A stretch of 64,000 bases of DNA, from positions 4,712,001 through 4,776,000 of the forward strand of contig OZ014416.1 of NCBI GenBank assembly GCA_963965975.1, in the 5' to 3' direction. Source of the stretch: Xestospongia bergquistia. Taxonomy: Eukaryota > Porifera > Demospongiae > Haplosclerida > Petrosiidae. Within the stretch, counting starts at the first letter, position 1. Each line of letters opens with the position of its first letter. A program made the translations under genes and the position numbers. This document shows positions 6,941 to 50,119 of the stretch, one piece after another. The notes below the pieces were generated by a model. The model was not told where the DNA came from, made no database searches, and worked only from the letters and a program-made list of their open reading frames with translations.

Positions 6941-6974
<34 letters not shown>

Positions 6975-10656: not shown

Positions 10657-10690
<34 letters not shown>

Positions 10691-25139: not shown

Positions 25140-25330
25140 ATAAGTTTATAGATCAATATATGGATGAATGGATGTATAAGAAGATAGACAAAATGGACAT
25201 ATAGACAGGTAGAGTAATAATGTGTGAACAAGGAGACTAAGTGATAAATGGATAGATGGACTAGTGAATGGACAAATGGATAGATAAACAAAGTACTAGT
25301 AATAAGATAGTTTGATAGATAACTAGATGA
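25140..25330. repeat. Degenerate GGATA/GATGAAT-type simple repeat
   Basis: The stretch is dominated by imperfect GGATAGAT, GAATGGA and ATGGAC units. The same style of degenerate tetranucleotide sequence fills several introns after 55 kb. Confidence 0.7.
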
Positions 25331-25550
25331 ATGTACTCTATGTTACATAACATAATGTATTGTATTTAATATCTTCATAACAATGGAGTGATATCAAGTG
25401 TCAAATCTAAATGAAAGAATCAGACTCATACCAATACCATGGACTGGGAATCAAGATAGTATAATTAGTATTGGCCTTTGCTTCTGAAGTTTATATTCTC
25501 TTTAGTATTCTCTACTTCTTTTTAATAATCATATATTCTGTCATTATCAG

Positions 25551-26530: not shown

Positions 26531-26673
26531 AAATGTTCATAAACATAAATAGATGCGTGTGGTCTCTGATCTACTTGAGTCAATTATGGTAGAAGGGATG
26601 GTAATTATATAAAATATTGTAACCATTACATCTAGTTGTTAGAGTAGGTTGTGTTGACTGCTGATTAAGGAGG

Positions 26674-26685
26674 GGGGGGGGGGCG
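26674..26685. repeat. Poly-G run upstream of the central gene
   Basis: A run of about 12 G sits in otherwise AT-rich DNA, just upstream of the proposed promoter region. Confidence 0.8.
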
Positions 26686-26739
26686 CTTCAGGTGTTCAAT
26701 CTAATTGCATGTCACAGAACAAAGTGGTTCCTTCTTTGA

Positions 26740-26849
26740 AGGTAGTTCGAGATGATTTGAGCCACACAAATCGTCATATGACGCAATTATCATCACGTGC
26801 TAAGAACTGAAGAAACGTATTATCGGTGACTTAGTAACAACTAGCCTAG
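26740..26849 (+). promoter_or_regulatory. Putative promoter and untranslated first exon of the central gene
   Basis: A locally G+C-richer patch holds a perfect 12-bp palindrome CGTCATATGACG (26772-26783), an E-box CACGTG (26794-26799) and an AP-1-like TGACTTAGTAA (26827-26837). It ends in a strong donor, CCTAG|GTAAGT, at 26849/26850. The next acceptor is in front of the ATG exon near 27155 or 27161. A noncoding first exon ending at 26849 therefore fits. The transcription start itself cannot be seen. Confidence 0.45.
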
Positions 26850-27182
26850 GTAAGTATGTAAATTATAAGATAATAAGAAAAATTATATGTAGATAGTGTG
26901 AATCATATGTCATACAGACGTTTGAAGTACTCAGTGTCCTCTGCATACTTGTATGAGATACTTCCTATAAACGTCTGATTTCCGAGCAAATATACATATT
27001 TTTATAATTTAGTGTATTGTTGAGCTGATTCTGATATATAGTCAGTGTTTACAACATTTTATTTTATAAAGTGACATGCATAACACTTTATACTATAACT
27101 GATATATTTACATTTATATCTAATGTTTTATTAGAGCTCTAGGTCAACTTAACAGTAACAGTCAAGGGCTGCCAGGTGTTCA

Positions 27183-30100
27183 ATGGCAGCTCAGCTATCA
27201 GAAAAAAAGTTATTAGAAGAAGAGCAGGAGAGAATTGTAAGTATATTATTAACTAATCTATTATACTACATGTGTTAGTGTACAATCAATACATTACATG
27301 TTATATGATAAATATGATGATGTAGTAAGTGAGTACTCTAACTCTTATAGTAGACTAGTGTCTGGTATTGTTAATATTAGTTGTAGTATAGTCTAATTGT
27401 CTAGTTTAAGTTTTATTAAATATAACTACTGTAAAAATATTGTCACTTTGTGTATTATATATTGGACCTGTCCTATAGTTCTATTAGTCTCATATAATAC
27501 ATGTACTTGTTTTTAAGTACATAATTAATATAAACTCAATTATTATTTTTGAGTGCCAAAAATAATAATTGAGTTTATTTTAATTATGACAAGGTAACTA
27601 ATCTGAATGGTACAACAAAGTCTCACCTTAGTTTCTATGTGGTTCATTAATCATTATGCTTAGGAATGTGATAATTACCTTATTAGAGCCCAGAATGACA
27701 GGTATACAAAAGCACATGTGTTCTCAGCAAAAACAATTCCTTGTTTTTTAGCGATACAATAAACTTAAATGAAAGAAAAAACAGACTTATTTACAAAATT
27801 TAAAAGATGTGTAAAAGACATCTAGAGCAATGTGAAGTTGAAATAGAACCATAGACTAAATTAGAATACAAATATTATGCTATAGAAGCTAAAGTTTAGC
27901 ATTATTCTGGACAATCTAATAGATCAAAGCCACACATGTGTCATCAAATCTAGCCTATTATTGCCCAAGACAAATCCTGCAATTGTTAACTAGTGTAGTC
28001 TTGTATTTATAGTATATTCATAATACTTATTACATCTTGTTCTTTTTATAAAATATTGTCACTTTCTGTATTGTGTATTTTACCTGTCATATAGTTTTAT
28101 TAGTCTCATATAATACATGTAGTTGTGTATGATTTACTATTTTTAAATATAATGACTTGTTATATAGGACTATTGTCTTTGGGAGTCTGCTAGATACGGA
28201 AATGTACACAAAGTGAAGCAATTACTCCAGAATGGAGCCAACTTTAAATCTTGTCATAATGATGTAAGATCTTATTATAGTATTATTTATTGTTATTATT
28301 TATATCTACTAATTTAGTAATTAATTAAAAATACATAGACTTAATGAGTATTGATTGTTTCTAGCTGTGTTTATATTGTGTATACACAGATATATAATTG
28401 GATTTATTTCATATATTACAATATATTTGTTTATCATATAGTATGAATTGATTGGATATATACCACCTCCTACAACACCTCATACTATAGCTTACGTCAA
28501 TGGTCACAAAATAATAGTAGATGTTCTTGAAAATGCAGGAGCTACTCCTGATTATGTAAGTGTATAAAAGTATAGTATGTAGTTGATGTCAATATTTGTA
28601 ATTACTAGAATACTTGTTTGTTATATTGATATCATGTACATGTACATACTTGTATACAACATGAAAATGTCTCCTAGTTATTATCAAGTCCTAATACACA
28701 TATCAATACATATATTGTTTATGTCTAGTTTTCTCCATACTACCTTTCTTATTACTAGCTACTAACTATAGTATTAGTTTAAAGCATATTATGTCACACT
28801 AAGATACAGCATACAGTGTCAACAATTGCCATCATATTACAGTTATAAAAGAAGTTGTCACAAATTATATAAACAATTGATGTCACAACAGTGACACCCA
28901 CATCCATTCCTCACAAGTGTATATATTAAATTCCAATGCTACTAGAGCACAGAGTTAGCATTCTTTGTTACCTAATCTTATACCTTGTTAGAAGCCTAAT
29001 TTTAGTCCATATCAATATCAGGAGCTGTTCATATAACAGATACAATATTCATTTTAATAGAGATCCTATCATTCCATCTACATTTAGAATAATATGTAGT
29101 CATCTTTGAGATTTAGTACAAAGTATTCAGTAAAATTGATAGACTTGTGTCAAACATTTATACAATAATTATTAGAAGAATACATGTATATATAAAGAAC
29201 TGGGAAATTAATTAGTTGTTTGTTGTACTAGTCACAATTATATGTAATTAAACTCAACACTTGTATATACTGTTGTATTTATTATGATGTATATTATCTG
29301 TATTTACTTGTTATGATTTATTAGAATGAAATTATGTTAGCAGCTGCTGCATTTGGACTATCAAACATCTTAAAAGACAGTATTCAGAAGAAGGCAAATG
29401 TAAATTATCAGGACAAACATGTAGTAAGTTATCATCTTATAATAATGAACGATTGTTTACTAGTAACAGAAGTTAAGAATTCTGAACGATTGTTTACTAG
29501 TAACAGAAGTTAAGAATTCTTATCATTAATTTGATGACTACTAGTTTGTGGATATAATGTATTAATATAATATAAAGTTATAAATATAAAGTTGCTATTC
29601 TATATATGTGACCATAAATACAAAAATGATGCCTAATGGACAAGCAAATTTAGAACAAACGCTTGTGTAGAAAGACTGCTATGCATCCATCTTAAGCAAG
29701 AAGTCAATTTAGTTTACATTGAGCTTGTCAGATGCTGAATTTTAATAACTTCCTGTTCAAGATGGCTGCATCAAGTGTTAGTTCAAAATTTCTTTGCTGT
29801 TAGATACTATTTTCATATTTATGGTGACATATAAAGAGTACTTTATCCATTTAGTCTTATATATTGTTAGCTTTATTGTGAAGATTTCTTGTTCTACAAG
29901 TTTTAGTTTGTTAATTGTCTAGTATTGTTTATTATTGAAGTTTTAGGTATAGTTATGCTTCTACAAACAAGTAAATAGAGAAAATTTCTAAAATAGAAGC
30001 AAATTTATGGATGGGTATTGTGTAACATCAGTCTATTATAAAGTATCCCAAAAAGATAGTATGATTGCAATTTCATCATCCCTATATATAAATAGCACAG

Positions 30101-33100
30101 TCATAGAATGCAACAACATATCACTGGTATTATTGAAGTGATATAAATGTGATTGGTTAATATCTTAAATTATTTGTACCACCGGTGCTATTATATAGAG
30201 ATGATTTAATTTCAATCCTTACTAATCCTAGACTCCAAAAGATGCTGGAGTTCTTGGTGAGAATAATCTACCAACTTTATCATTCCTATTACAAGGTTAA
30301 TAAATTTTTCTGATGTTTTTTACTACATAGTACAAATAAGTTTGGACACTAGCTTGTGACACCTTGTTACACAGACCAGGCCCATAGCAAGCTATTTTTA
30401 GTTGGTCAGGCCAGGATGTGGGTGTAACCAATTAAACACACCCTATTGGCATGCCCAGTTTTCTATTTTGTTTTTTTTTCTCAATATTTTGAAAAGATGC
30501 TACTACGATGTTCGGAGTTACTAATAAATTCATTTACTATGACTTTTGTATCAAGTAAATCAGTTCTATCCTTATGTACTGTGTAGGATCATCAAGTAAT
30601 GTAGGCGCTCTTGCATAATCTTTGATCTAAGGTATGTTTTAACACATCTTAATGTGCTGCATAATCTTTCCAATGATGAATTGGTAGCTGGGATCACTAA
30701 CAGTAGCTGCATTAGGTGCTGTACTTGTTAGATAATAGAAAGCTGGCCAGAAGAGAGAGATGCTAAGTAATCCTTGATGTTGAATATTGTGATGGTTTCG
30801 TTATCTTTGAAATTAGCTGCAAGCACTCTTAGCTGGACATAAAATTCGAATGCCAGGGTTACCACTTGATGGAATAGTTTCTTTCAATTTCTGGAAAATG
30901 CCTTCCCTTCTTGGAGAACATTTGATAAGCTTACTAATTTCGTGAGTAAGTTCAAGAGCATTCTTCATAACCTTTGATTTTTTAAAGTGTCGCAAGCTGC
31001 CAAGTTAAGGGTGTGCCCATAACAGTGAGTAAATATAGCTTTTGGTTCAACTTCACTTATCCTTTTGGCAATACAACTTCTGCTCCCTGACATAGCACTA
31101 GTACCATCATAGCATTGTCCTCGTAATTTCCCAATATTCAAGTTAAATCTTTGAAATAGTTCTATTATGATAAACGTTAATGTTGCTGCATCAACAGGGT
31201 TTCATTTAGAAAAATGGACAAGGGTGTGTGGCAAAATAATACTTAGAGAAAATTTAGGGGGCAAAGGAACTGTGTGCGTCAGTGCACCCTCTAGGGGAGT
31301 CTGGACGCATCCCCTCCAGAAAATTTTTGATTTTAGACCCTCTGCGATTGCTTCTCGTACATTTCCAGACCATTTGTGGTTTTCAAATGACATGGAACAG
31401 AAAGAGTAGAAGATTAGCAGTTTAAGTTAAAAACTGTATATTCTCCTTGTGTTTAGCCTAAGGTTGTCTTATACTGTATATTCTTTGTGTTACGTTTCAG
31501 TTCTGTATTCATTACATCCAATTACCCCTTGAAAAAAAATTGCTAACCTAATTTCCAAGGGGGGGGGGGTGAGACTCTGGCAAGTTGGGCCAATTCCCCC
31601 CCCCCCCCCCCCTAAATGAAACCCTTATCAATTGAATAAACTTGGTATAAACCTAGAAATTCCTCATGCACTTGGAAATGATCGGTCACCCAACATAGAA
31701 ATATAGTAACCTGTTTTTTGTTGGAAACATCTGTGGTTTCATTTGCCATTACAATAAGAAATGGTGTTGATTGGAGTGTAGAAACTATATTACGTAGGAT
31801 TGAAACACCCATTATTTTAATCATTTCATTTTGTATAGTAGCACTGACATAAACATCTTTTTGTTTCAAATACTATGCCAATATCTGATCTTGTTCAGCA
31901 TTCATTTTTAGCAGTTGAATAATATTGCTGTCACACTCATTTTTGTCACCTCTCAATGGAAGTGCCTGTTGACTGAGGAATTTCAAACAATTCATTCTTT
32001 CATACAATGCATGTTCATTTTTCAACTTTGATGCATGTTGCTGTGACAGCATCTCACCAACATCAGGAACTGTACATGGAATTGTTACCAATGTCTCCAC
32101 TGCCGCATCATGGCAGGCACTTTGCTCATGGTATCTAAATGCAATAGTGGCATCTTTCCAATTATGGAAACCATGTGTGACAAATGCTAGATCAGCTCTA
32201 GTACTGGACTTCATTCCTTTTATTTTAAAGCTCATTAAACACATATGACTAAAGACAGATTCAATGGATTCACTTATTAAACCAACCTGGCTGAAAGCTT
32301 CTTTCTACAACCTTAGACTTTCCAAATGGCCTCTTTGGAAAATGAAAAGCTTTTGGTTGATGTGGTTTTGATGGTATAACCACATTTTCATTAGTTATCA
32401 AAACAGATTGAGAACTTGAAGCAATGAATTGTACACACACGCACACACACACACACACACACATGTGTTTTACATAAAACCACACCCAACAATGCAATAA
32501 TAATATTAATTAATTAACGTCAGCAAAGTTGGTCCGGCCCAAACCTGACCAACCGGACCGTCTCCTATGGCCATGACACAGACTATCATTATGTCATTAT
32601 AGTTTCCTTTATGTGCTCCTAATACTCTTTTTAAAGGTCACTTAGCTAAGATGATATAGCCCATAAGCCAAAAAGGCATTACTAATGTATCAGTTATATC
32701 CATATATGGAAATAGATACAACTGTGATTTCAACAAAAGTTAGTTATGAAGTTGTATGCTTTTTAATGATGCTCATGTACTCCTGATAGTACACAGGAAA
32801 CATTCTCAATCTTCTACTGTCTACTATTAGGATATGAATATTATCAGTCAAATATTTAGTAATATTCCTAGTAATATAAAGAGAGTTAGTGGCTAATCAG
32901 ATAAGATTTTGAGATAATCATTGTATATTATAAGAACCACAATCATAGCTACCAAGTTTCACGAAACCTATTCAGTATGCATTTTCTTGAATTTCAGTAT
33001 TTTATTACTGCATTTCAGTATATTTTTTCCAAGAATGTCACACCAATATTTTTCAAAATTAGCATACATTGCAAAAGAGATTATACATTAAATTTATAGG

Positions 33101-36100
33101 AAAGATTACTTTCATTTGTGCATGACTTTGCCTTAGCTAGTAGAGAGTCACTGAATGATGATAGCTCACAACACTGAATTGCCAACTGCAACTGCACTAA
33201 TGTCATCCATGCTTAGGCTGGAAAATGTGACCCAATCCGTATTCTACTCCGTAATTTCCGTATACCGTATTTTATGGCACAATTCCGTACGAAATACGGA
33301 CAAATCCGTACGCTTGGTAGCTATGCACAATGTAAACAAAAGATGGACTTCTAGTAAAACCTCTAAACTGTCATTATTATAGCAAATAACATAAAATGTT
33401 GTTATGATATGAATAATGTCACTATGATGTAACTGATTGACTTTATATATTTATCTACTGTAGTATTGATAGTTATCCCATAAGTTCCCATTGATGATTA
33501 CACTCATCATTAAAAACGTGGGCCTTATTAATTACCCATGATGAGTATCTACCTTACATAATTATAAGTAATTAATTTGTAAGCACGTTTTTTTATTGTT
33601 TTTTTCTTTCTATAGTATCATCGGACTGCTTTGCATTATGCTTCAAAGGAAGGACAAATTGAGATAGTACAGTTACTATTAACAGCTGAGGCAGATCCTA
33701 ATATTTGTGATGAGGTTTGTATTATGTATAGAGATGGTTTATATTTTATATACTTGTGTATTCTGTTTACTCCATATACATGTATGTAATACTACTATAC
33801 ACTCTCCAAGTTGAGAAGAGCTACTCAGGCATGTAAATAACTTTGCTGTTTTATGTGCTATCCACATGGGACTTGGACCAATCAATTCAGCTTGCATGCA
33901 AATGCATATTTTGTAGATAAAATTTGGCTCTATAGTGTATAGTAGTATTATATACATGTACATGGAGTAAACAGAATAGTAGTAAACTATAAAGCTCCAT
34001 ACATTTCAATGGCATACTTTCATGATACTTCAAGTTTTGTACCTTTAAGGATTTAATGAATAACTATTTTCACCTTAAGAAGTCCGCCGTCTGTCACATG
34101 GCAATTCAAAATTATAGTTGTAATTATATGAACAGATGTTTTATTATAACAATTATTATTATTAAAATAATAACCAGGTATTGTCTTAAGGCAGCTATAA
34201 AGCCACCAAGGCTCTGAATAAACATAACCTTTTTATCAAAGAAGGAGGCTGAGAATGCCTGATAGAGGTAGTAGATTTGGCTTTACGATCAAAATCATCA
34301 ATGACAGGCATTGTTTCAGAGATCCTGAGTCTATTTACACCTGTAGAGTTCCTCAAAATAGTCATAGACACTTGCAACAACCTCCTTTGTTTGTGACCTC
34401 AGTCTCTTTTCCCTTTGATATCTTCACGAACACAAGAGAAATTGTGGTGTGTTTGCATGCCATGCATGTGAACTAATAATGAATATGAAAGTGCTTGACC
34501 TCTCTGAGGTCTTATCCAGAGACTTTCTTTATTCTTTTTAGCCTCCTCAAGTGACCTATACCACAGAATGCAGACAAGAGATATCTCACATGATATGCAA
34601 GATGATAATTGATGACTCATTTTCTATTCGATCAAACGTTGCCATCTACTGGGTACTTTGCACTCTAATTGACAAAAGCTCCAACACTTTCCAACTTCTT
34701 AGTAAACGTTAGTAATTCTCCAATTATAGCTTTGGTGCCAGTATTTTTAGTTTGCACTCAATGTATCGACAAAGATAACTGCCAAAATTTAATAAAACTC
34801 ATAATTTTCCAAAAAAGTATTTTTACAAAATTCTCACTTTAAAAAGTTGGAAGATGTTATAAGCTGTATGCTTGAATTGTTGAATCTTCACTGAAAGCTG
34901 TGCTTTTTTAAAAAGGTTTTTCAGACTTTTAAATCTTTTTGTTCATTTGACTGTCCTTTTGGCAGTATTCGTAAGAAGTACAGAAGTTTTGCCACCATCC
35001 ACTATAGCTTGGTGGCTACCAGTGCTGTTTTTGCTGAGTTAAAGCAGTTTAAAGCCATTTGCCCGGATCACAGACACACACACACACTGACAGACTCGCT
35101 ATGCACCCATGAGCAGCGAGGTTAATTATAATGTACTTCCATGCTAATTACATATAATAGGAGAGGAAATGTGTGCCTATCATTAGCACGACAAATCTGC
35201 ATATTGTCAGCAGTGATGTCTATATTAGAAAGATGCCTCTAGTAGAAATGTTAAAATATAATGTCACCAATCCTACCTACTATATTGTAGTTATTCATAT
35301 ACAGTACAGATGTCTCTCCTTTGTCTGTTATCTTTCATTTGCATCGATTAGGAAATTTTTAAACTTTATTGTAATATTGAACAGTAATTAGTAATTGAAT
35401 TGTAGTCACATTCACATTATCTATTGTTTATTCTTTTTTAGTATCAACAGACTGCTTTGCATTATGCTTCAAGTGAGGGACATTCTGAGATAGTTCAGTT
35501 ACTATTAACAGCTAAGGCAAATCCCAATATTTGTGATTTGGTATGTATTACATATAGAGATGGTTCATATTACATGTACTTGTTTATTATATTCACTCCA
35601 TGTACATGTATGTAATACTACTAGTATATATATTATATCAGTACAGGATATTTAACAATATACGTGAACATCACTAAACATGACACAGACAACATGAATC
35701 AGCAAACTTATACTGCCCTAACTCTTGAACTAAATTGTCATTTCAATATCTTGTATTCAAGCTTTATAATTGTTAAGAGAGTAGTAAGATATTCTATTAA
35801 ATTAACATGGCAGATCTTTTCTTAAAAGTTTCTGTTACATTATGTTACTCCAGAACAGCCAAAATATAATAGAAAGTTAGCCTCTTTCCATTCTAATTAA
35901 TTAGGAACTAGTAAAATATTTTCGGACCCAGAGGGTGCTTATTATTAGAACATGCAAATATGTATTGACAGAACTATGTCTACATTGGAGAGGTGCCTAT
36001 AATGAAAATCTTAAAATGTATTCACACCAATGCAACTTATGATGTAGTGATACATACACAATACAAGAGACGTATTCTTTGTCATTTTCTTTTATTAGCA

Positions 36101-39100
36101 AAGCTTAGCTAGTTTTTAAATGTAAAGAAGAGTTAGTTAGGGTCCTATTAGTTTAATGTTTGTTCAATAGTACCAGGAACATACAAGAATTATCAATAAG
36201 TGTTCAACTGCTGTTATGTTTGTGTTCTAAACATTATTTAAATGTGTTCAATAATTATTCCATATAAGGGATATGCACTTAAGTTCACAGTACTGTTAAG
36301 AATGTCTTGGAAACAATGAATAGAATTGCTATTACCAATGGTGAGGAAAATGAAGAAACTAAGAAAAAGGTCTTATGCATCGAAAGAGTGTTTAGAAGAA
36401 GTTTGCTTAGAGGTTCTTGAAGCTTTTGTCATCAAGGAGATGGAAATAGTTGAATAACTTTATATTTTTTTATAAGAGAAGCTCTTTAGCAATACATGAA
36501 AACTAATCTTAGGCTTGACGAGATGCTGGAGTCTATTGAGAATGTTGTACTAGCTCTTTGTTCTCATTTGTAAGGGTAATGAACAGAACTTTCTTTGCTA
36601 CATAGTACAAAAAAATTAGGACACCAATACATGATACCTTGTCCACACAGATGACGAGTATGTAGTATAAATTTCTCATATGTCCTTTCAGTACTTTTTA
36701 AAGCACACTTTGCTAAGAGGTTACAGCCCAGAAGCCTTAAAACTATAAAACACTTAGTAATATCCAATAGAAATAGTTATAGAAGTTAGAGGTTCTTTGC
36801 GATGTTTGTATATTCCTAATGAACACACTATGTCAGTAATATGTGATTTTGTGTAATATAAATAGGATCTTCTGTTGTTATTAAATCATTTATTACATTT
36901 ATAGTGGGGACATAGTTCACTTCATGCAGCATACTGGCATCATGAAATAGACATTTTGGAGCTCTTATGTTCCTTAGGAGGAGATGTAGACCAAGTTAAA
37001 AACGTAAGTGATAAATATAATAATATATTTACTGTATATGATGACAAGGACATAGTGATCTTACATGTTATGATATATTATAAACATGACCTAATTATAT
37101 GTTGGTACATGTCACAGATATAATATACTATTTATTTTAATAGGATGACTTACTTTTGACTTCAGCTAAAAATGGTGATATACATAATGTAAATGTAGCA
37201 CTTACATCAGGTGCTAATGTCAATGTTCATTTTCTCTATGTTCATCCATTTGTGGAGGTTAGTATACTGATTATAGTATATGTATTGTTAATAGTAGTTG
37301 TGGTCTATTAGTGAATACATTAGTACTACTGTAAGGTCATAAAATTGGAGTGTTGAAACTTCTTGTTTTTTTGAAAAATTCTATTATTCATGCAATTAAA
37401 TTTGCATGTTAAATTTTGAGTTAAATACTTTACAAACAAATTAATGAAAAATATTTACTTTATTGCACATTAACTTAAAGGTTTATTGATACTAAACTAC
37501 ATATAATACAAACTAATATTAGAAGTAATAGTAATGGGATATCTATTATTGTTATATTAAGGCATCATGTCATGAGATACAGGTAAACACAATGTACAGT
37601 GACTAACAAAAAATGTACATTCTATGACAATTGATGTTTGATTGAGCAATCAACATTGTGACAGGTCATACAATCACTACAAATGTTATGTGCTCTAATT
37701 AAGTAGTATAAAATATCAATTTTTCTGAAAATAGCATTTAGCCAGCCATATTAACTTTAATTATAATACCTGTGTTTTATGTGGGTAGTCAATTTATTTA
37801 TTATCTTAGGTACTGAGATGATAACAATTTATGTCTAAAGGAAACTACTGTTTTTGTTTTTTCTTTAACTATGTAGATATTTAACAGAAACACGATCATA
37901 AATAATTAAATGATAAGGCCAAATGCCACAAATATCTTAGGGACATGAGGGCTATTTTAAGTTTACTAGGATGAATTCTGAAACAATCTGAGATAGTAAA
38001 ACCATATATGTGTCATATTTGTATATACAAATCAAAGAAAATATATTTTAAGTACATGATACAGACAATATGAACTAGTATTTTTATTGCCTGCTATCAT
38101 AGCTGGTGATCCTAAATTGTCATTTCAATATCTTTTATTCAGGCTATAATTCTTTTTTTAGTAGCAATCTATTGTTATCAATTATTAAGACAGAACGACT
38201 TGGTATCAAGAGTTTCTGATAGTTGTTAGTCCACAACTGACAAAGTATAAATTGTTGTAGTCTACAACAAAAATTTTAGTCTATTTCCATTGTAATTAAT
38301 TAGACACTCATGAAATTAATTAAGGAAACCAGAGAGTGACTATATTACAACAAGCAAAAGTATGTATTGTCAAAAGTGATTTCTATATTGAAAGGTGTTA
38401 CATTAGAAATGTTAAAACAAAATGTCATCAATACTACCTACTATATGGTAGTTATTTATATACAATACAGATGTCTCCTTTGCCTGTTATCTTTCATTAT
38501 CAAGCTTATTTTTTTTAAATTTATTGTAGTATAAACAATTATTAGTATTTAATTTGTAGCCACATTATTTTACTGTTTATTTTTTCTATAGTTTTATCAG
38601 ACTTCTTTGCATTTAGCATCACGGAAAGGTCATGTTGAAGTAGTTCAGCTACTATTAACAGCTAAGGCAGAACCCAATATTTGTGATAAGGTTTGTATTA
38701 TGTATAGAGATCGTTTTTATTACATATTCTAGTGTATTGTTTTTACTCAATATACATTTAGGTAATACTACTAGTATGTATTATATCAGTACAGGATATT
38801 ATAATGATATACATATAGATGTACATCACTAAACATGATACAGAAACATGAACCAGCAATCTTATGCAACTCCTGCCTTAACTGTTGAAGCTAAATTGTC
38901 ATTTTTAATGTCTTGTATTTGGGCTTTGTACTCAATTAGAAATTAGCTTTTGAAGAGTGCCAACATTCTATGCAAGTAACTCTGGTTTAACTATGGATAC
39001 AGCACCATTAGTTCGTGCCTTTTTTCACAGATGACGTGCTTGCAACTTGAACATTATTCGGTCGACAATACCTACCCAACGACTATGACACTCCATTGCC

Positions 39101-42100
39101 TTTAAAATATTCACAGTTTCTCTCTCAATCTCTGGATAACTAGTGGCAATTATCATGTCATATAAATTCATAGATTTGTGGGAGATTCTTCTAGACAACA
39201 CTGCCTAATAGAATGGCTATTAGCTCTCACACACAACTCTTCAGCAGGGTCTTGCCTTTCTCAAGCCTACCAAAGGGCTGTCACTCTTTTTAACAACATT
39301 TATGTGTGCTATAAATTCCTATTTGGCTATAATATCAGAGCTCAGACACAATCTGACCAGAAGCTGCCTAGCCTATCTTCATAATATAGTTTGGAGGCAG
39401 ATCACTTGATAATGAAGGCTGGGAGGACCTATAACTATGTTTTTCACTTGCTAGCAACAGCTGACCCAACTCTGTATTAGTGGAACTAAATCCTTCTCTA
39501 TTAATTTCCTTTATAGGCCCAACCTTGCTAAGCAACATTTTGAGCCATGCCCATTGTGCCTGGAGGCAAATCATTTAACAAAGGCATGTGTGCTAGCACC
39601 CTTAGTTCACTGATTTCTTCAATTACCCTCTTCCATAACAACATCATCCAAGAATCAGCCCTCTCCCAATGGAATTCAAATATTTATCTCATAGAATCCA
39701 GGGTGCTTGTATGCTGCCTGGTACCTGCTGTTACAAATGCCAGTAGTTTCAGACACGGCTTCTTCATTGCCCTTGATTACTCTCAGCATTGATTGCACAA
39801 GTTACATTAAGAACTAAGTCTCCTAAATGACCTCTATAGCAGATCCTTCTAAATATGATTTATAATGAAAAATGCTAACCTTAAATTTTGAATTATATTG
39901 TATATGTTACAATAATTCATCTTACAATAATTAATCTTTCATTATTACTATTAAAACAAAAGACCAACCTTACAGTTAGATTTATTAGACAATAATCACT
40001 GATATACCTTTAACAGTTGCTATCATGTCTTCATTAATGTTATTGATGTAGTCAATTGAATCAGAGCACACATGATTGTAGCTGAATCACATGATATGAA
40101 TTTTATTTTAGTCAGTTAATAAAGTTTGTTGGACTTTACCTTTCATAATCTTATTATACTCTTACAAAATTTTCCATTTGACCATACTCTGAGTATTGTT
40201 GACCAGGTGTTTAAATGAAGCATTTTACACAAGTCAGATATTGTAGTTTAGAAATAATGTGAATAGACAAATAATGATATCATAATTCTTTACAAAGGTC
40301 AATGGGTGTGGTTTGTGATGTGGTTTCTTTGTGTGCTTATATCTTTTTTCTTCAATATTGAATTTGTGTGTCTTAATTTGTTAGCTTGTTTAGTGACTCA
40401 ATAATAATGTCATATAGTGACATCATGGAATGAGATATAGCTAATAAAGAGGATATGTTCCTACTAAAGTTTGTTTGTCGCATGTGTTAGCTGCTGTTGG
40501 TAGTTTATATTGAATATGTACAACATATTGTGTAGTTACTTGTCATATTATACAGTGTAATACAATTGTTGTGATGGAGTGTACTGATGACTGGTTTCAT
40601 TGACTATGTAGTTTACTGTCTAATAGTTTCTTATTTTTTTATTATTTAACTTTGCTTCTTATATTTCCAGATAGGACGTACACCTGCACATCTTGCAGCA
40701 GAGGAGGGACATGCTGACATAGTAAAATTGTTAATTGAAATGGGACAAGCTAACATCAATGCTAAGGATTTGGTAAGTCACAGTAATTGTCTTACAAAGC
40801 ATGTCATTGTGTCAAATTATGACCAATCAAGTAATTTAAAATACATCATTTGTGGTTAACAAATTAATAGGACTTAAGGTGATTCAGTAAGAAACATACT
40901 CTACAGCAACTGTTCTTTAGCAGTTATAGATTGTTTTAATAATTAAAATTATAGTACATTTAAATGATAACACAAATGCTTATTATTGATGAACTTCATT
41001 TAAGTCAGTAAGTGAATGACCAAAAACTTGTACCTTCGTTATGTCATTTGTAACATAGTGATGAGGCTATTCTCATTTCAAAGAGTGGAGAAAGACTTCT
41101 TGTCAGTCATAGTCACTACAAAATACAATATAAATACACATGCACTGTGTTTTACAAGCAAGCAACATAATACAATGATAGTTTAGTTGTAATAAGTGGT
41201 CTCAGCACTACATCCTTCGGTGTTTCTTATTAGCAAAAAAATGCTAAGCATTCGGTAATGTCTTGGTATTTGAATGCACTACAATATTTATTTTTCACAT
41301 TACTATATATAGTAATATAAATAAGACATATTGTTGTACATATAGTTGACTGTGAACCTACAAGCATGTTGTATGATATAAATGTATCATTGTAGACTGT
41401 GAGTGTACTCATACAAACAAAGTGCATGTACATATGATGTTCCAAAGATATTCTTAACAATCTGTACCTTGTAAGGTTGTCATTATTGTGTACAGCTTGT
41501 TTATTTGAAAAATCAGGATTAGTTTCTTGAAAATTACAGAACAGTGAAGTAGTGTAAATTTGCATAATATATTAGTATTGATGATGTCAACTATTTGTTC
41601 ACGTAATAATGATGTAATGACACTCCAATAATACACTGGTCATACATTTAACTTCTTACTAGTGTCTGTGATATAAAAGAACATAATGTATCTTTTATTT
41701 TATTGGATCCTTATATTTACTTATTTATTGATAACTGGTTACATTGACTGTATATTTTATTGTCTAATAGTTGTTCTTTTGTAAGTAAATAACCTTGTTT
41801 ATTATGTTCCTAGAGAGGATGTACACCTGCACATTATGCAGCAGAGGGAGGACATACTGACACAGTAAAACTGTTAATTGAAATTGGACAAGCTGATATC
41901 AACACTAAGGATAGAGTAAGTCACAGTAATTGTATTACAAGACATATGTTTGTACCAAATTATGACCAATGAAGTAATTAAAATTATTTCATCTATTTCA
42001 TAAGATATTCTTTTACTATCTGCATTTTGTAAAGTTATTATCATTGATTTTCTTGTAAGGTTGTAATCATTTTCTACTATATCAACAACTTCTTTGTTTG

Positions 42101-45100
42101 GCAGTCTAAAAGTTCATTTAAGTAGTGTACATTTATAAAATGCATTTTCATTGATAATGTCAACCATTTGCTAAAATACCATGTCACAGTTTTTATTTCA
42201 TTAACTGATGATTACAATTACATGGATACATTTTGGGTTTTGTGTATTGGATGAATGTGATGACTAATAGCAAACTATTACAGTTGAAATATGTTCACCT
42301 AGTTCAATATTACAGACATAGCATGGCATTATAAAAAAAATCATAACAATTACTGCATTATAATAATCATATAATGACGTGTGGATAGTACACTTGCCAT
42401 ACAGTTCACTTCTTTGTTCACTATCAAATGAATGTGTTACTTACCAGTAGTAGATTGAGTAACAGATATACCATTTCTTGAGTAATGTAATCATGTTTGT
42501 CAACACAACATAACATTGCAACTTGTAATACCTTACAAGTATTGTTGTTGTTACCATGGTGATCAATACAGTAATTTAAAATTGACAATGAGTTTTAAAG
42601 ATGGTTCACCTTTTGCTGCATACTTTGCCATATATATACCATAAGTATTTACATCAATAATTAATAGAACATCAATATTGGTATTCCAGTGTGTAGTTAG
42701 GAGGGATCATTTATAAAAGTAATTAAAGTCGTTTGAACAATACTGTTAGATATTTTATTACATGTGATAAAAGAATGAGATACAGTTATAATGTTGTACA
42801 GGGCTGGGTACCAACTTAATTGTATATTTACCTTTTAATTTACCCACTCCCTTTAAATATTTTGGGATTATAATGACAGTATGTTCTTTCGTTCTCTGTG
42901 TAGCCTTTTTCTTAACTTCACACACACATTACTAGGTTCAATGCCTGCATGTATTGCTGGACAATCCACTAAGACTTTGTCCAATCCTTTGAAGACAGAT
43001 ATCTTTTCCTTGGCAATGCAACCTTGTTTTCATACTCAAGGGTTCCTAGAAACTGTCTATCAGCAATCAAACAGTTACAGTTTGTTTCACAGATACACAT
43101 GTATACAGCTTGAGTGTAACATTACTTTAGACCTTTAAAAAATCTATGAAATACTTCAATAGATATGATGTTGTACAAAATTTGATATTGCGTGACATTT
43201 CTAAAATGTGATCAGAGTACGATGAGGTACTGGTAATCACCATTAATTGTTGCAAGCATTGTTGCATATTGACCAATATACATATTTTAGAATAAGTTTT
43301 CTACTATCTTATATTTGAATGTCAATTTTAAATTTTTCAAATTATTCTTTGGCTCCCTATCTAACAGCTGCTTCTTTTAATAATTAAAAAGTACAATATC
43401 ATATCAGTTGCAAATTGGCTCATTCATGGCTATGGGTACTACTCAATATAACATCAATCCCATAAGTATATAACTAGCTGGATAATAGACTTCATAGAAG
43501 TAGAATGATGTAGGACTAAAAGAAGGTCAGGTCAATCATTATCATCTGAAGAGTGTCCAGAAAATGATTGGAGGATATTTGTGCTTCTAAATTGTTGATA
43601 CAGTGATACCAATAGTGAGACATGTCCTGTACCTTTGCTACACTCCTTTATGGATGCGTCATAGGCTGCTGAGACGAAAATCTCTGAAAATGGATCCAAG
43701 AACTTCAATTGTATGATTATAGCATCATTAGGATTGCTTTTTAAATATATACTTGACTGATAAAAAATATTGGTGATGCTTTATGTTCAATTGCTAATAA
43801 GGAATCAAGTAAGGCTTGATAATTGCCAAACAATCATTTATTCATTGAGCATGCATATTTGATCAAGTTGTTAATTTTGTCAGATACAGGGTGTTGATGA
43901 ACAGTAAAAGGTGGGTCTTTTTATCCAAATACCATTATAGACAACGACATACGTTTTTGGATAATTATTAACCTGTCACATTTCTGCAGGATTTTCACCT
44001 AGTAAATGATGAATGATGGTGTCTTCACTTTGTTGGTTATTACGAAGTGGAACATATGAAGAATTTTATGTCTAAACTAATGCAACATCATCATTTGTTT
44101 TTTGAATTTCAGTATCCTCTTTATTTGTCACTATTTCTGGTTGTATATCAGTAAATGGAAGGTGAGCAGCACTGGAGACTTGGTCAATTGAAACATCTTT
44201 GTAAAAAAAGATTGTTATCTTTCAACTTGGTGTCTTCGAACATATATATATAAACACCCAAGGGTTCTATTAACCTAACATTGAATTGCTATTTCTTATA
44301 TTGAATTGCTATTTTATTGCTATTGTAAATTTAAAATCAAGAGCTAGACCATTCAGTTCTTCATGTCTTTCATGATGTTGTTGTCTTATTCTTCCTGTTT
44401 TCTGTGATGTAAAAGACCAGAAATTATTTGGGTCCTTATATTTAGCTATCATACTCTGTTGTCATCTCTGTTGTTCTTTCTGTCTAATCCAGTTTCCAAT
44501 TTATTTAGTAAGTAAATTTATATATTGCCTATATTCCAAAAAGTACAGGCAATAAATAGGCTTAATCACTTCAAAATTAATGTGTGTACACAGAACAGTT
44601 ATTTACTATTTCAATTTTGAAATTTTCATAAAAAGTAATGTTTCCTTTTAAAATATGGCAATTTTTTATATTGGTACTTGTTCTGATGTTTCTTGTCACT
44701 GTCAATTCCACACCCAATATGGTTACACTGGCATTTGCCTCACTTTTACTTTTATCTCCATTTACCACCATCTACTACAGGCAATGAAAAATACTAAATT
44801 GCAGAACCTTGCCACAATTTCTATAGTTATGGTTGTTTGTTTGCAATTATCATGCTGCCACGACATGTGGACTTGTAAACTGCTTAGAATGAATGGGCAA
44901 TAACAGTTTATGCAAACATTCTGAGAGTGTTGTATTCTTTGCTAATATTAATATGCACAATGCATACAATTACCAACCACTTTATATGCTTCCTAGCCAC
45001 CACCACCACCCTTGATAGCTTCACACCAAGACAATGTAAACATTTTACAAAAATGCCTCTTTGTTGTCCACTGAAGTGATTTTCGATAACAGTTTGTACA

Positions 45101-48100
45101 CAATAGCTAGCATGTACAAACTTTTACCTCTAAATATCTTTATAGCAAGTAGTAACAATATTCATAGATGTAATGGTATCATTTGGTTTATTAAGGCTAA
45201 AGGGTATTATAACATGTGTATTTTTACCCTTATACATTGTAAGTTGAATTTGAGTGTCTTGATGTCCTATCATGTTTAATGCAAATGTCATAATATGTTA
45301 TCATTGGATGTAGTATAGCTAAAAAAGGTAGTTTGTTAGTGACTTGTAAGTATATTTTAGTTACTATTTATAGTTTATATTAAGTGTGCTGTATAGGTGG
45401 TGTAGTCATAGCATTGGTCAGATTTGATATGATAGTATAATAGTTATAGTTAGTGTGATTTTTGTAATTAAATTTCCTTTCTGTTTTCTAGCTTAAAGAA
45501 ACACCAGCACATTATGCAGCAATGAAGGGTCATGTTAATGCTCTAAAGGTATTAATTGAACTGGGACAAGCTGATATAAATGCTAGAAATGAAGTAAGTC
45601 ACATTACGTTACTTATGAATTGTTTCCATTGATGTATTACATTTTAATGTGGCATTTAACAGCCTCTCTGATACCCAGACTGCTCATTAATTCAATAGTT
45701 TGAAAACATGTTCAACAAAATGTTCCAAGAACAATATTCAAATCATAGAGAAAATACACACAAAAAATATTTAAGTGTGTATAATTACAATGATGTTTTT
45801 ATCATTATTATGTTTCTTTCATTTAGCATCCAATGTAACACAACATTGCTTTTATAATATCAAAATTCTTAAAAACTCAAATAACAAAATTTTCGTTGTT
45901 GCTCTGGTTTGAAATTACATAGCATTATGTATTAATCGTACATTATAATCTAGATTTCATTAATAATGATTTAAAAGTTGTATACTTTAATGTTTTATTT
46001 TCACAGAATGGGGATTCTCTCTTGCATCTTGGTTGCGCAAATAGTAAAGTAGATGTGATTTCATATCTACTTCACACTGGAAAAGTCGATCCTCTTGCTC
46101 ATAACAGTCATAGAAAAACGCCATTAGAAGAAGTACAACTGAATGATCCAAACAGATTTGAAATATTGAAGATGTTTGAGCCATTTGCAAAATGTCATCG
46201 AGACTTTCCAGTTGATTCATATAGAAAAGTAATTTTTTGTGGAAACATGTCAGCTGGAAAGAGTTCATTAGCCCAATGCATTATATATCGTGCTGATAAA
46301 CCTGCTAATTATTACTACCACCCTTCTAAATGCATCGAAGACGTGCCATTACAAACTGCTGGTATTAACTATTATAATGTTCGTAGTCATGAAGTTGGCA
46401 ATATTATTCTTTATGATTTTGCTGGTCATCAAGAATATTATAGTAGTCATGAAGCTGTACTGGAGAATCTTATGTTAAGAACTCCTGCAGTTTTTACAAT
46501 AGTGATAGATTCAACCAAAGGTTGTGACTACTTCAAGAAACAGTTGTATTACTGGTTTAACTTTATTGAAAATGTTTGCGCTAATTTAACGAAACCATCT
46601 CAAGTGATTGTCGTTGGGAGCTATGCTGATCAATTCACTGACTGTTTCAATGAATTCAAGTTGCATGTTGATTATGTTGTTAAAGATGCCATTCGTAAAC
46701 AAGAGTATAGAGGTTTTGTTTCCATGGAGTGTCATCGCCCAGGTGGAAAAGGTTTCCCTGAATTCATTGTTCACCTTCATGAAAGTTGTGAGGCTGTTCT
46801 TGATAAGTCTGACAGCATTAGCTATTACTGCCATATGCATTATGCCTACCTCCAAAAACTACAGAAAGTAGCTATTAGACTTAATGACCTTATTGAAAGC
46901 CTAAAAACTCTTGATGATCCTTTCCTCCTTTCAGATGAAACAGTTTTGGTTGATTACTTGTCAATTCTCAGTGACAGTGGTATTGCTCTGTTTCTGAGAA
47001 ATAAAGTAAATTCTAATAGTTGGATTGTAATCAACAAATCAAGTATTCTTGCTGAAGTTAATGGTGTTCTTTTTAATCAGACCATCAAGCGTCTTCCTAT
47101 ACCAACCTCTAGCAACACTGGTATTGTCCATGTTTCTGTTTTACAAAAACTCTTTCAAGACTATGATATAATTATGCTTATTGATTTTTTAATAAGCATG
47201 GAGTTTTGTCATGTTATTGATTCAGACACACTGAATACTATTACTACCAACCTATCTTCATCAGATCACATTTCTAATGTTGATGTTCTTTTCTTTCCAT
47301 CTCTCATCACTGCTGAGCCTCCTTCAGATTTAAATGATCATTTCAAGAATGGGTTTGGTTGGTGTTTATATTGCCCTAATAAATTTCAATTTCTATCTGT
47401 TCGCTTCCTTCATGTTCTTATACTTCGATTAGCATATCTATTTTGCCTTCCTCGTCAACCTAAAGCTGATGAATTAGAAACAGAGTCTCCTATGGAGCAG
47501 TTGAATCGTCGTTGTACAGTATGGAAGAATGGTATTTATTGGAAACATACAAATGATGTAGTAGTGGAAGTGACAGATAATAATAGATGTGTCACTGTAT
47601 TTGTTTCCAATGTCAAAGGAGTTGAAAGTAAAAAAAATTGTTGTTCTGTTATAAAACTAGTTTGTTCTCTTCAAAAGCAGTTTTGTCCATGTGAAATTAA
47701 AGAGTACATCATCCCTTCTGGATCTTTAGCTGACATCCGTAGTAAGGAAATTTCGAAACGAACACTCTATGTAGTAAATGATGTAGCTTGAGGAATGCTA
47801 GTTAATGAGGAAATATTTGACCATAATGAAGTTCAAGACAGCTCAGTCAATGTAGAACATATTTGTGCACATGAACCATACATCTCCCTTGCACCAGTAG
47901 TCATCTATGCCTTATTCTCTAGTAGTAAAGCCAATAAACATATTCCAGAGAGATTATTTCAGCATATACGAGAATTTGCTCCAAGTATAATGTCACATTA
48001 TAAAACATCCAAAGGCAGCACCTATTCTGATGTTACCAGTCATCTCAATGACTATAGCTTTTTCACTGGAAAAAATCCCTTGGTAAGTAATAGTACTATA

Positions 48101-50119
48101 CTAAACCTAATACATGTCCTCATTATTATGTGATATATGACACTGTACATATTTGTATGTGAACACAATCAATTATAACTTAACATATTATCCTTGTACT
48201 CATTATTTCAAGAGATATATTTTATTGAATTTAAGGTTCTCTCAAGTCCATGTTTAACACAAGATGAGATAATAGAAATCTCAAAAGATCGCTTTCAATC
48301 TAAAAACATTTCAACTATAAAAGGTTTGATATACATATTTGAGTGTATATCTAAGGACACTATGTAGTAAACAATAGCTTTCTTATTATAGTTAGTGTGT
48401 ATACATATACTTTGTCATCATTTATGATTCTGATCTTTTGGATTTGTTAGGAAAACGTCCTGAGAAGTGTGACCTCCTACAACTAATGGCAGGTATTGCT
48501 TTTAAGTGGTATATTATTGGTGAATGTCTTGGAATTCAATACACACATTTGGCTACTTTACAAATACAAACTTCAGGAGATATTGATAAACTTGCTGAAG
48601 TACTACAACTTTGGATGGATACAATGCCTAAACCTGTCACTTGGAACACTATTTTACAGACAATAGAAGGTCCACCTATTGAAAGTAAATCTACTGTCAT
48701 GAAGATAGAAGAGTTCTTAAAATGTGAGTACTTATATAATCCCAGCAAAGTAGGTAATTGTATTTTTGTTAATTTTGCATTTGTGTTTTCACTAAAAAGC
48801 ACCATCATGTTTTGCTTGAGGAAACATAACCTTGTGTGTTAGCTAGTAGGAGAAATTTATTAATATTAATACTTGGGTAACCAATAATAATCATAGTTAG
48901 TTTTGTTATTATTTATGTAGCCAAGACAAAGGGAAAAAATGATATTTGTGATGATCTGCTGGAGCTATTGACCACTATTGGTAAGATATTGTTAATATGT
49001 ACTGGTTCACTACAGAAATAAACACATATAGTAATAAGTAATTATACTTAATAAAAATACTTTATCTGATAAATGCATATATATCAAATATATACTGTAT
49101 TTAATAATTGTTTTAACCAAAAAAATTTTTCTTTTATACTAATAATTTTCTATAACATTTTAAGTTTAAATTTACTTATTCAGATGTACTGTATTAAGTT
49201 TAGTAATTTTCTAATCCACTTTATTTTCAATATATTTTATCTTTTTTTGTCACAAATTTTATAGAAGACATAACACAAACAGACCAAAACATTACTGAGC
49301 AGCAAAGTAATGGTAAGTTTATATTACTTAACTTGTGCATGATTACATAATGATTATTAGATAACTAATTAAATTACTTTATATCCTTCACAATGAAAGT
49401 GTTAATGAGTCTGTTAGTAAGGACAGTAACACAGTTAGTGGAAAGATGATATAAATTATTAATTCCATCAATTTTGTGCATATTTCATTTTGTTGTAGTC
49501 ACTACTATTAAGTTTGGCAATTTTCTGAGCCATCCCCAAATTGACAGATACTTTTATTTATGACATTAAAAATTTAGAGATTATTACAATAGTTATTAAA
49601 TTCTTATGAGATTTATTATTAAACTTCCTTTCAAAGAATGGATATTCAAGCATTATACTAAAATTACATACTATAAGAACAAAAAAGATATTATAATTTG
49701 CTATATTAAAACATAATGGAAGCTATACCTTCAATGTTTGTTTGATTAAAACACTAGTAATTATTGTCATTGTACAACAAGCTCATCAAAGTATATTTTA
49801 TAACCTGATAGTATAATATTATTCTTTTTGATATAGTTAACAATTATTATTATTATGGTGGTTGGTGTGTAGTGTCAGTAATTGTAGCTTTTTTTGCTAT
49901 AATAATATGGTAAGTTAAAAAGATGATTGTTACAGTGCTTCATATAAAGTAATACTTTGTGTGTGTGTAAGAGTAATGTACATGACTCCTGTAAATAACT
50001 GTTGCATTCTTTTGATATACAGTAGATATTATTTGTATAAACTGCAATGTCATGCCATAGTCATCAACATAATGACTCAATTAATCTATTATCATTTTTG
50101 TAGGTATATTACCTCATGA
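27183..50119 (+). CDS. Ankyrin-Roc-COR-death-domain protein with C-terminal membrane anchor (DAPK1-like, no kinase)
   Basis: Nineteen coding exons join in phase: 27183-27236, 28168-28263, 28442-28555, 29325-29423, 33616-33714, 35442-35540, 36905-37003, 37144-37257, 38592-38690, 40671-40772, 41814-41915, 45492-45593, 46007-48082, 48236-48323, 48451-48723, 48921-48980, 49265-49312, 49837-49909 and 50104-50119. They sum to 3813 nt, or 1270 codons plus the stop. Order: short charged start (MAAQLSEKKLLEEEQERI), 11 ankyrin-type exons (residues 19-393), Roc (about 465-640), COR (about 660-880), linker, death domain (about 1115-1205), polar linker and one hydrophobic segment (about 1250-1266). One in-frame TGA at 47789-47791 (codon 988) lies between COR and the death domain. 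If respected, the product is a 987-residue soluble protein. The order matches DAPK1 minus kinase, as known for that family. A signalling role is inferred. Confidence 0.85.
27531..27577. repeat. Perfect 20-bp hairpin in an intron
   Basis: TAAACTCAATTATTATTTTT and its exact reverse complement are separated by GAGTGCC. It could be a very short MITE relic or an RNA hairpin. Confidence 0.85.
28168..45593 (+). CDS. Ankyrin-repeat exon block (11 exons)
   Basis: Exons 3 to 13 each encode about one ankyrin unit of 32-38 residues. Every intron among them is phase 0, so units can be duplicated or lost without breaking the frame. Typical motifs are TALHYASKEGQIEIVQLLL (33616 exon), TSLHLASRKGHVEVVQLLL (38592 exon), TPAHLAAEEGHADIVKLLI (40671 exon) and TPAHYAAEGGHTDTVKLLI (41814 exon). 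Exons at 28442, 29325 and 37144 are more divergent. Exons 33616, 35442 and 38592 are close paralogues and share flanking intron sequence, as do 40671 and 41814. This is the signature of recent unit duplication. The block is probably a protein-binding surface. Confidence 0.88.
29447..29520. repeat. Perfect 37-bp tandem duplication
   Basis: Two identical copies of a unit that starts GAACGATTGTTTACTAG and ends TTAAGAATTCT lie just after the exon ending at 29423. The duplication looks recent. Confidence 0.92.
31195..31626. mobile_element. 432-bp MITE nested in the hAT element
   Basis: AGGGTTTCATTTAG at the left end and CTAAATGAAACCCT at the right end are perfect inverted repeats. They are flanked by a 5-bp duplication ATCAA (31190-31194 and 31627-31631). 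Removing it restores the transposase frame across the site (SID followed by AATL). The interior holds a G run (about 31560) and a C run (about 31596-31612) and no coding capacity. The insertion postdates the hAT copy. Confidence 0.85.
32440..32463. repeat. CA microsatellite
   Basis: A run of ACACACAC lies inside the hAT element near its 5' end. Confidence 0.9.
32944..33325. mobile_element. 382-bp MITE with 13-bp terminal inverted repeats
   Basis: CATAGCTACCAAG begins the element and CTTGGTAGCTATG ends it. The flanks carry a 6-bp direct repeat CACAAT (32938-32943 and 33326-33331). The right half is rich in CCGTA/TACGG motifs. It has no transposase and is probably mobilised in trans. Confidence 0.78.
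33759..33978. repeat. Inverted repeat, 45-bp arms, 130-bp spacer
   Basis: The arms 33759-33803 and 33934-33978 are reverse complements with two mismatches. The left arm corresponds to sequence shared with the introns after exons 35442 and 38592. The right arm and spacer are therefore the additions. Confidence 0.88.
34085..35120 (-). mobile_element. Intronic insertion with transposase-like remnants
   Basis: This stretch is richer in G+C than the intron around it and is absent from the paralogous introns. Minus-strand open fragments (34399-34620 and 34195-34380) and the overlapping frame RLRSQTKEVVASVYDYFEE resemble the N-terminal helix-turn-helix region of Tc1/mariner or IS630-like transposases. 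They are broken by several stops and frame changes. A short CA run lies at about 35080-35090. I found no clear terminal repeats. The family assignment is weak. Confidence 0.35.
38980..39800 (-). other. G+C-richer intronic insertion, antisense coding-like remnants
   Basis: The sequence interrupts intron DNA shared with the paralogous introns. The minus strand has protein-like stretches (SYPEIERETVNILKAMECHS; AWLKMLLSKVGPIKEINREG) with stops between them. I do not recognise the source; it could be a mobile element or a processed host fragment. Confidence 0.35.
42740..44580. other. Intron DNA with unrecognised antisense remnants
   Basis: In the long intron before the exon at 45492, the minus strand at about 43500-43740 has an open stretch (FLDPFSEIFVSAAYDASI; GHVSLLVSLYQQFRS) of transposase-like composition. 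No terminal repeats or intact gene were found. The rest of the intron to 45491 shows nothing I can name. Confidence 0.25.
46007..48082 (+). CDS. Large exon: last ankyrin unit, Roc GTPase, COR, linker (one in-frame TGA)
   Basis: The acceptor is TTTCACAG|AATGGGG and the donor CCCTTG|GTAAGT. The exon opens with a final ankyrin-like unit (DSLLHLGCANSKVDVISYLL). The Roc nucleotide-binding motifs are all visible: P-loop GNMSAGKSS (residues 472-480), the switch threonine in PLQTAGI (507-513), and DFAGHQEYY (530-538). GSYAD (597-601) stands where Ras-type GTPases have NKxD, as is usual for Roc. COR follows, with a winged-helix-like stretch SWIVINKSSILAEVNGVLF. After codon 987 (NDVA) comes TGA, then the same frame stays open for 97 more codons up to the donor (GMLVNEEIFDHNEVQ through FFTGKNPL). 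The open, well-composed frame after the TGA suggests a recent nonsense change, a readthrough site or a base error, not a normal terminus. Confidence 0.85.
48236..48723 (+). CDS. Death-domain exons
   Basis: Exon 48236-48323 (ends phase 1) joins 48451-48723 through G|GA. The second exon reads as a death domain: W..IGECLGI near its start, a central DKLAEVLQLWMD, then PVTWNTILQTIEGPP and IEEFLK at the end. Spacing and hydrophobic pattern match DAPK, ankyrin and UNC5-type death domains. Such domains form homotypic contacts in apoptotic and innate immune signalling. This part lies downstream of the in-frame TGA, so it is only made if that codon is bypassed or is not real. Confidence 0.82.
48921..50119 (+). 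CDS. C-terminal exons with single membrane-spanning tail
   Basis: Four short exons (48921-48980, 49265-49312, 49837-49909, 50104-50119) join in phase after the death domain. They encode a polar linker (DITQTDQNITEQQ), then YYYYGG and a hydrophobic run WCVVSVIVAFFAIIIW. The protein ends four residues later (YITS, TGA 50117-50119). A lone hydrophobic segment at the extreme C-terminus, with no signal peptide, fits a tail anchor with the signalling domains in the cytosol. The anchor spans an exon junction (ATG|G, phase 2) with a good GTAAGT donor. Confidence 0.72.

Follow-up and report, generated by a model that had tools for sequence, protein, structure and literature searches.

We examined a gene-like locus at positions 27183–50119 (+ strand) of a 64,000-nucleotide stretch of the genome of the sponge Xestospongia bergquistia (contig OZ014416.1, positions 4,712,001 to 4,776,000; hereafter the window). 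We propose, at a probability of about 0.75, that this locus belongs to a large animal family of Roco proteins without a kinase. As judged from sequence, the family would combine ankyrin repeats, a Roc GTPase domain and a COR region of the DAPK type, with a Death domain close downstream at 38 or more of 92 loci and a hydrophobic tail in a subgroup. The copy in the window carries a premature stop codon. An initial annotation of this DNA had presented the gene as an unusual signalling design; the architecture instead belongs to a family with at least 92 loci in the same genome. Since the flagged locus carries a premature stop, it is less important than the family to which it belongs.

The size of the family was estimated by two whole-genome searches with Roc-COR exons. 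The query of the first was the Roc-COR exon of the window up to its stop (594 residues), for which the best 74 of 294 candidates were scored. This search identified at least 74 loci at 48–100% identity, the window itself included. Seventeen loci besides the window were 78–84% identical to its Roc-COR exon, 14 of them on C6 between 4.4 and 7.6 Mb, and 56 further loci at 48–54% identity were found on C1, C6, C7, C8, C2, C4 and C5. The second search used the exon of a distant member, L047, and yielded 65 loci as the best of 380 candidates; 18 of these overlapped none of the first list, and two of the 65 contained internal stops. The union of both searches amounts to at least 92 loci. There was no close relative among 18 stretches picked from a list of Roc matches and two that flank the window. 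Three relatives, L046, L048 and L047, were compared with the window copy, to which their Roc-COR exons are 84%, 81% and 48% identical, respectively. The 20 nearest loci referred to below are the 18 at 78% identity or higher, window included, and two at 53–54%.

The gene model in the window was rebuilt from splice sites and reading frames. It consists of 19 exons on the + strand with GT donors and AG acceptors, and the shortest of its 18 introns is no less than 127 nt. The exons total 3813 nt, which corresponds to 1270 codons and a final stop, with the ATG at 27183 and the stop ending at 50119. The start phase is 0 for exons 1–14 and then 1, 1, 1, 1 and 2 for exons 15–19. The predicted order of parts runs from ankyrin units through Roc, the COR-like region and the death-like domain to a final hydrophobic segment; it is right in outline and agrees with the order given by the initial annotation. 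Profile searches of the window copy placed Ank and Roc above their Pfam cut-offs, but COR (as COR-B) and Death below them. The earlier claim that the 19 exons form one phase-consistent message holds for splice sites and phases but not for exon 13, where an in-frame TGA is present at 47789–47791. Exon 1 (27183–27236) provides the ATG start and encodes 18 residues. DNA from this region (27130–27245) recurs on C6 and C10 with 18 matches in the genome, and at 8 of the 92 loci, counting the window, it is found 5–34 kb upstream of the Roc exon. This recurrence fits a gene start there; the far copies may belong to a neighbouring gene.

Exons 2–12 each encode an ankyrin or ankyrin-like unit of 32–38 residues, every one of them in phase 0-0. 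Six of these 11 exons passed the Pfam Ank cut-off alone. They are exon 5 (33616–33714, 37.6 bits), exon 6 (35442–35540, 38.7 bits), exon 9 (38592–38690, 35.8 bits), exon 10 (40671–40772, 40.7 bits), exon 11 (41814–41915, 37.3 bits) and exon 12 (45492–45593, 32.3 bits). Exon 2 (28168–28263), a degenerate unit, and exon 7 (36905–37003), a weak repeat, scored below the cut-off at 14.5 and 16.5 bits. The ankyrin-like exon 3 (28442–28555, 38 residues) had no Pfam match alone, and the degenerate exon 4 (29325–29423) and exon 8 (37144–37257, 38 residues) had no ankyrin match alone. The spliced N-terminal 450 residues matched PF12796 with an E value of 1.5e-66 and PF00023 with an E value of 8.1e-65. 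Ankyrin exons have been multiplied together with flanking intron DNA: 33560–33797 is 82–83% identical to 35387–35623 and 38537–38773, and 40582–40849 and 41726–41992 form a second duplicated pair of exon and intron, the duplications overall being 79–83% identical. In L046, L048 and L047, one ankyrin unit was read before Roc in each. Intron 4 contains, at 30965–31198 on the − strand, a frame with a DUF4371 match of 20.3 bits, below the cut-off of 32.1, which we take to be a probably decayed hAT-type element.

Exon 13 (46007–48082) encodes the last ankyrin unit, Roc, the COR-like region and a stretch after COR, and it ends at a donor whose position L046, L048 and L047 share. The TGA within this Roc-COR exon is codon 988 of 1270. 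All three relatives have a sense codon and an unbroken coding alignment at this place, with close similarity around it in L046 and L048. Because the three relatives code through the aligned place, we regard the TGA as a premature stop, and the conventional product of the window copy would therefore end before Death and the tail. Read normally, this copy is predicted to encode an ankyrin-Roc-COR protein of 987 residues that lacks Death and tail, or else its message would be lost to nonsense-mediated decay. Its Roc-COR exon frame spans 622 residues, in comparison with 667–761 in the 73 other loci of the first search. Stops inside this exon are known in 3 of the 92 loci, one of which is the window, and those at C2:11174845 and C10:3436949 indicate that disabled copies occur in the family.

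We considered two explanations in which the gene would be intact in spite of the TGA. The first is that the TGA arose by a mistake in sequencing or assembly, or represents one of the alleles at a polymorphic site, so that the population retains an intact gene. The rest of the 19-exon model is intact and stops in this exon are rare, both of which favor this explanation, but the two other family loci with stops speak against it, and we consider it improbable. The second, which we find less probable still, is that the copy is functional and the whole protein is made, either by removal of a short in-frame intron such as 47742–47801 (60 nt) or by readthrough of the stop codon. Frame-keeping GT-AG pairs do surround the TGA, and the Death exon past the stop shares 94% identity with its L046 counterpart and differs from it in few amino acids. 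However, the counterpart of 47742–47801 is conserved coding sequence in L046 and L048, and in L047 it is aligned as coding. The borders of this candidate intron exist also in L046 and L048, which code through, and its 60 nt contrast with the much longer introns of the model. A mini-intron over the TGA was judged unlikely since the relatives code through that stretch.

Selection on the family was assessed by the ratio of nonsynonymous to synonymous substitution rates (dN/dS) in pairwise comparisons of the window copy, L046 and L048. Comparisons with L047 were excluded, as dS was saturated in Roc-COR and exceeded 1 in the other regions. The ratios were 0.32–0.48 for Roc-COR up to the stop and 0.44–0.89 for exon 13 after the stop. 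For the Death exon, the ratio between the window and L046 was 0.17 (5.0 versus 7.0 changes). The values for Roc-COR indicate that the family is under purifying selection.

The Roc domain (46226–46621) contains the P-loop GNMSAGKSS and the motif DFAGHQEYY. It scored 30.2 bits against PF08477, and those of the three relatives scored 32.8, 34.1 and 28.1 bits, with a cut-off of 27. The COR-like region (47009–47716) was compared with those of other Roco loci in the same genome. Two of these, L020 and L022, resemble LRRK2 and LRRK1 in that ankyrin, LRR, Roc, COR and kinase frames could be read by eye. Two others, which we call DAPK-like, show Roc, COR-B and Death consecutively: L037 (C10:3215237-3217680), with kinase exons next to it on the same strand, and L045 (C9:6282547-6285128). 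With COR-B of Pfam (cut-off 27), the window scored 18.0 bits and L048 15.7, and there was no match in L046 and L047; the two DAPK-like loci scored 19.1 and 18.6 bits. A COR profile of four family members aligned with the two DAPK-like COR regions over 200 columns (E 1.7e-5, probability 78%). With the two LRRK-like CORs it aligned over 27 columns at an E value of 0.039, and the DAPK-like and LRRK-like pairs compared directly gave an E value of 0.046. The family profile had no match among solved structures. These results point weakly to a COR domain directly after Roc in the family, and they place the family nearest the DAPK-like loci by COR. A relationship with LRRK was rejected on the basis of the same alignments, 27 columns at E 0.039 against 200 columns at E 1.7e-5. 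When 28 loci were compared by tblastn at E 0.1 using Roc, the one match was to the LRRK2-like L020 (28% over 87 columns), so Roc alone does not favor DAPK. The resemblance to DAPK1 noted in the initial annotation is therefore upheld by the COR-like region, which matches the DAPK-like and not the LRRK-like COR, and Roc shows no preference.

The absence of a kinase had likewise been noted. In the 10 kb that precede the ATG (17182–27182), the three + frames matched no Pfam family at an E value of 0.01 or better, kinases included. A kinase exon beside L037 had 6 genome matches, none of them near a family locus, a result which applies to that kinase type only. No NACHT or NB-ARC ATPase, which would mark an NLR or STAND protein, was matched by Pfam in the exons and spliced pieces scanned. 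L037 and L045 are better candidates for the DAPK1 of this genome; they are known from their Roc-COR-Death part, not from upstream ankyrin or kinase. The kinase exons at 541–1167 (−) of L037 follow on the same strand just after a Death-bearing frame at 1417–2598, as if DAPK-like genes were in tandem. At C8:7278547-7298911, which L015 covers in part, three long single frames of 1639–1871 codons contain Roc and COR-B, one of them near a kinase-like frame recognized by eye. It is very improbable that the window gene represents a DAPK1 orthologue from which the kinase was lost: it has the same order of ankyrin, Roc, COR and Death and its COR is closer to the DAPK-like of the two kinds compared, but Roc, COR-B and Death are found in a row at L037 and L045 as well, and the window protein had no tblastn match (E up to 10) to the examined parts of either locus.

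The death-like domain is encoded by exon 15 (48451–48723), which follows a linker, exon 14 (48236–48323), with a homologous stretch in L046 and L048. Against PF00531, with a cut-off of 22.6 bits, exon 15 scored 14.4 bits alone and 15.3 bits in the spliced C-terminus; L046, L048 and L047 scored 14.0, 22.7 and 30.5 bits, two of the three being above the cut-off. The genome was searched with exon 15 of the window (best 150 of 947 places) and with the death exon of L047 (best 150 of 899). All 20 of the nearest loci, the window among them, have a death exon on the same strand 0.6–0.9 kb past the matched Roc-COR stretch. Among the 72 other loci, 18 have one within 5 kb downstream on the same strand, for a total of at least 38 of 92. 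As controls, no death exon was found within 5 kb upstream on the same strand or downstream on the other strand at any of the 92 loci. A profile of four family death domains matched 18 distinct chains among solved structures at E values up to 10, 14 of which are FADD or RIPK1. Death-domain-like exons are very common in this genome, in which the best 150 of 983 candidates were scored for PF00531. Tiny linker exons are predicted around Death, after it in L046 (3232–3285, 3597–3644 and 4392–4445) and before it in L047 (2714–3300). We find it scarcely credible that an ankyrin-Roc-COR gene is followed by a separate Death-tail gene: the stop between both parts in the window copy and the abundance of death-like exons would suit two genes, but the Death exon keeps its distance and strand in all of the nearest loci, the Roc-COR frame reaches its donor in L046, L048 and L047 before any stop, and the window exons remain in phase.

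Past the Death exon, the model continues with two linkers, exon 16 (48921–48980; similar stretch in L046 and L048) and exon 17 (49265–49312; similar stretch in L048). Exon 18 (49837–49909) encodes the hydrophobic tail segment and has DNA and protein matches elsewhere in the genome. Exon 19 (50104–50119), placed by splice sites and frame, adds the last residues and the final stop. The C-terminal segment GWCVVSVIVAFFAIIIWYI, to which these last two exons contribute, has a mean Kyte-Doolittle hydropathy of 2.46; no other 19-residue window of the protein scores higher. It ends a few residues before the stop. A second, weaker hydrophobic stretch (mean 1.85) is inside the COR-like region. The DNA of exon 18 has 9 matches in the genome, 5 of which (window included) are downstream of a family Death exon. 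One of these is in L048 on C10, where the reading by eye is again hydrophobic. A protein search with 23 tail residues found 4 places, compared with 9 by DNA, and missed L048. The tail exon at C6:6698736 is 99% identical to exon 18 of the window, and none of the 92 Roc loci is within 8 kb upstream of it.

The closest relative, L046, has no exon 18 match in the 8.5 kb examined. About 4 kb past its matched Roc-COR stretch there is a dissimilar predicted last exon, which encodes a strongly hydrophobic segment and a few polar residues before a stop. The DNA after this exon resembles the window sequence beyond the window's own stop. The exon borders of this second type of tail are a prediction. The stretch matched the genome 17 times, at about 11 places; 4 of these places follow one of the 20 nearest loci at a distance of up to 8 kb. 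Nine of the 20 nearest loci thus have one of the two dissimilar tail exons downstream; with these two queries, no tail exon was found at the other 11 or at the other 72. In the distant L047, the Death frame meets a stop shortly after the matched domain. The tail anchor proposed by the initial annotation corresponds to a hydrophobic segment near the stop, and such a tail looks like a feature of a subgroup. The exchange of tail exons suggests that the tail matters in that subgroup.

A number of observations weigh against assigning the locus to a kinase-less family of ankyrin-Roc-COR-Death proteins. The splice junctions of the 19-exon model are predictions from DNA, and the parts upstream of the Roc-COR exon were read in the window copy only. 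COR is below the Pfam cut-off in all copies scanned, as is Death in the window copy (14.4–15.3 versus 22.6 bits). At 54 of the 92 loci, no Death was found within 5 kb among the best 150 candidates of each death search. The structure matches of the death profile reached no better than an E value of 0.026, which is suggestive with none significant singly, and against the DAPK-like C-termini the same profile gave nothing useful (E 0.39). Four of the 9 DNA matches of exon 18 have none of the 92 family loci nearby. Between the window and L046, dN/dS is 0.89 (15.5 versus 4.5 changes) in the part of exon 13 that follows the stop, which could reflect a relaxation of constraint in either copy or simply the small counts; for the Death exon the other two pairs gave 0.53 and 0.66.

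Elsewhere in the window, a satellite array occupies positions 2–13230; it comprises some 92 copies of a 142-bp unit with 83% matches, and the unit was detected at a length of 425 bp as well. Diverged minisatellite-like repeats of 114–143 bp, alike in appearance, are present at 18781–24527.

We compared the kinase-less family with known systems as they are described in parts of the cited papers. ROC domains are thought to be GTP switches and may dimerise on GTP binding, and DAPK1 has a kinase and a death domain beside Roc-COR (PMC6337361, PMC4104024). DAPK1 constitutes the third group of Roco proteins (PMC6337361). Like DAPK1, the sponge family has ankyrin repeats, Roc, COR and a C-terminal death domain, the latter found for the family, with that of the window beyond the premature stop and below the cut-off. 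Unlike DAPK1, it has no kinase that was found, a tail segment in a subgroup and at least 92 loci in one genome. The placozoan Trichoplax has at least 17 ROCO genes with domains that include death and CARD, and a kinase is not named among them in the part cited (PMC4104024). These genes are fewer than in the sponge family, and ankyrin repeats and membrane tails go unmentioned in that part of the paper. As many as forty Roco domain combinations are described for animals, and the ankyrin-Roc-COR-Death order may be one of them (PMC11378527). In brown algae, the LRR-ROC-COR genes are expanded and their repeat exons encode one unit each; these genes were proposed to be immune receptors (PMC11378527). 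The sponge family is similarly expanded and, in the window, has one repeat unit per exon, whereas the algal genes have LRR instead of ankyrin and, in the part cited, no death domain or tail is described. The sponge Amphimedon has large lineage-specific Death and TRADD-N sets in which death-like domains often occur with ankyrin repeats (PMC8195603). Those sets, however, center on TRADD-N, and the Roc-type GTPase in the cited part of that study concerns DAPK and prokaryotic systems. The response of a sponge to lipopolysaccharide involves GTPases and ankyrin proteins (PMC8242945), a parallel that is suggestive only. Judged by titles and abstract openings, and within the terms searched in open-access PMC text, no paper dealt with an ankyrin-Roc-COR-Death family in sponges or with one that has a membrane tail.

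We suggest that the kinase-less Roco family is plausibly receptor-like. The ankyrin repeats of intact copies would bind a ligand or partner, and the ankyrin units, multiplied with their flanking intron DNA, would be the variable sensing part. GTP binding by Roc-COR would then switch dimerisation, and the death domains would cluster adaptors or one another. In the tailed copies, the same events would take place on the cytosolic face of a membrane. Without a kinase, the family would most likely signal through its death domain. This sequence of events from ankyrin binding through the Roc-COR switch to death-domain clustering is a possibility that we put forward tentatively.

Roco GTPases have been studied mostly through LRRK2 and DAPK1, to which kinases are attached. 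With at least 92 Roc-COR loci that are apparently kinase-less, one 146-Mb animal genome would offer a natural test of what a GTPase switch does in combination with a death domain, in the presence or absence of a membrane tail. More speculatively than the mechanism itself, the family could represent a further intracellular receptor repertoire of animals beside NLRs and TRADD-N proteins. In such a repertoire of about 100 or more Rocos, exon-duplicated ankyrin would sense, Roc-COR would switch and Death would signal, in some cases from a membrane by way of interchangeable tail exons. If the copies vary between individuals or respond to microbes, the family would be a little-noticed system of innate recognition in an early animal lineage.
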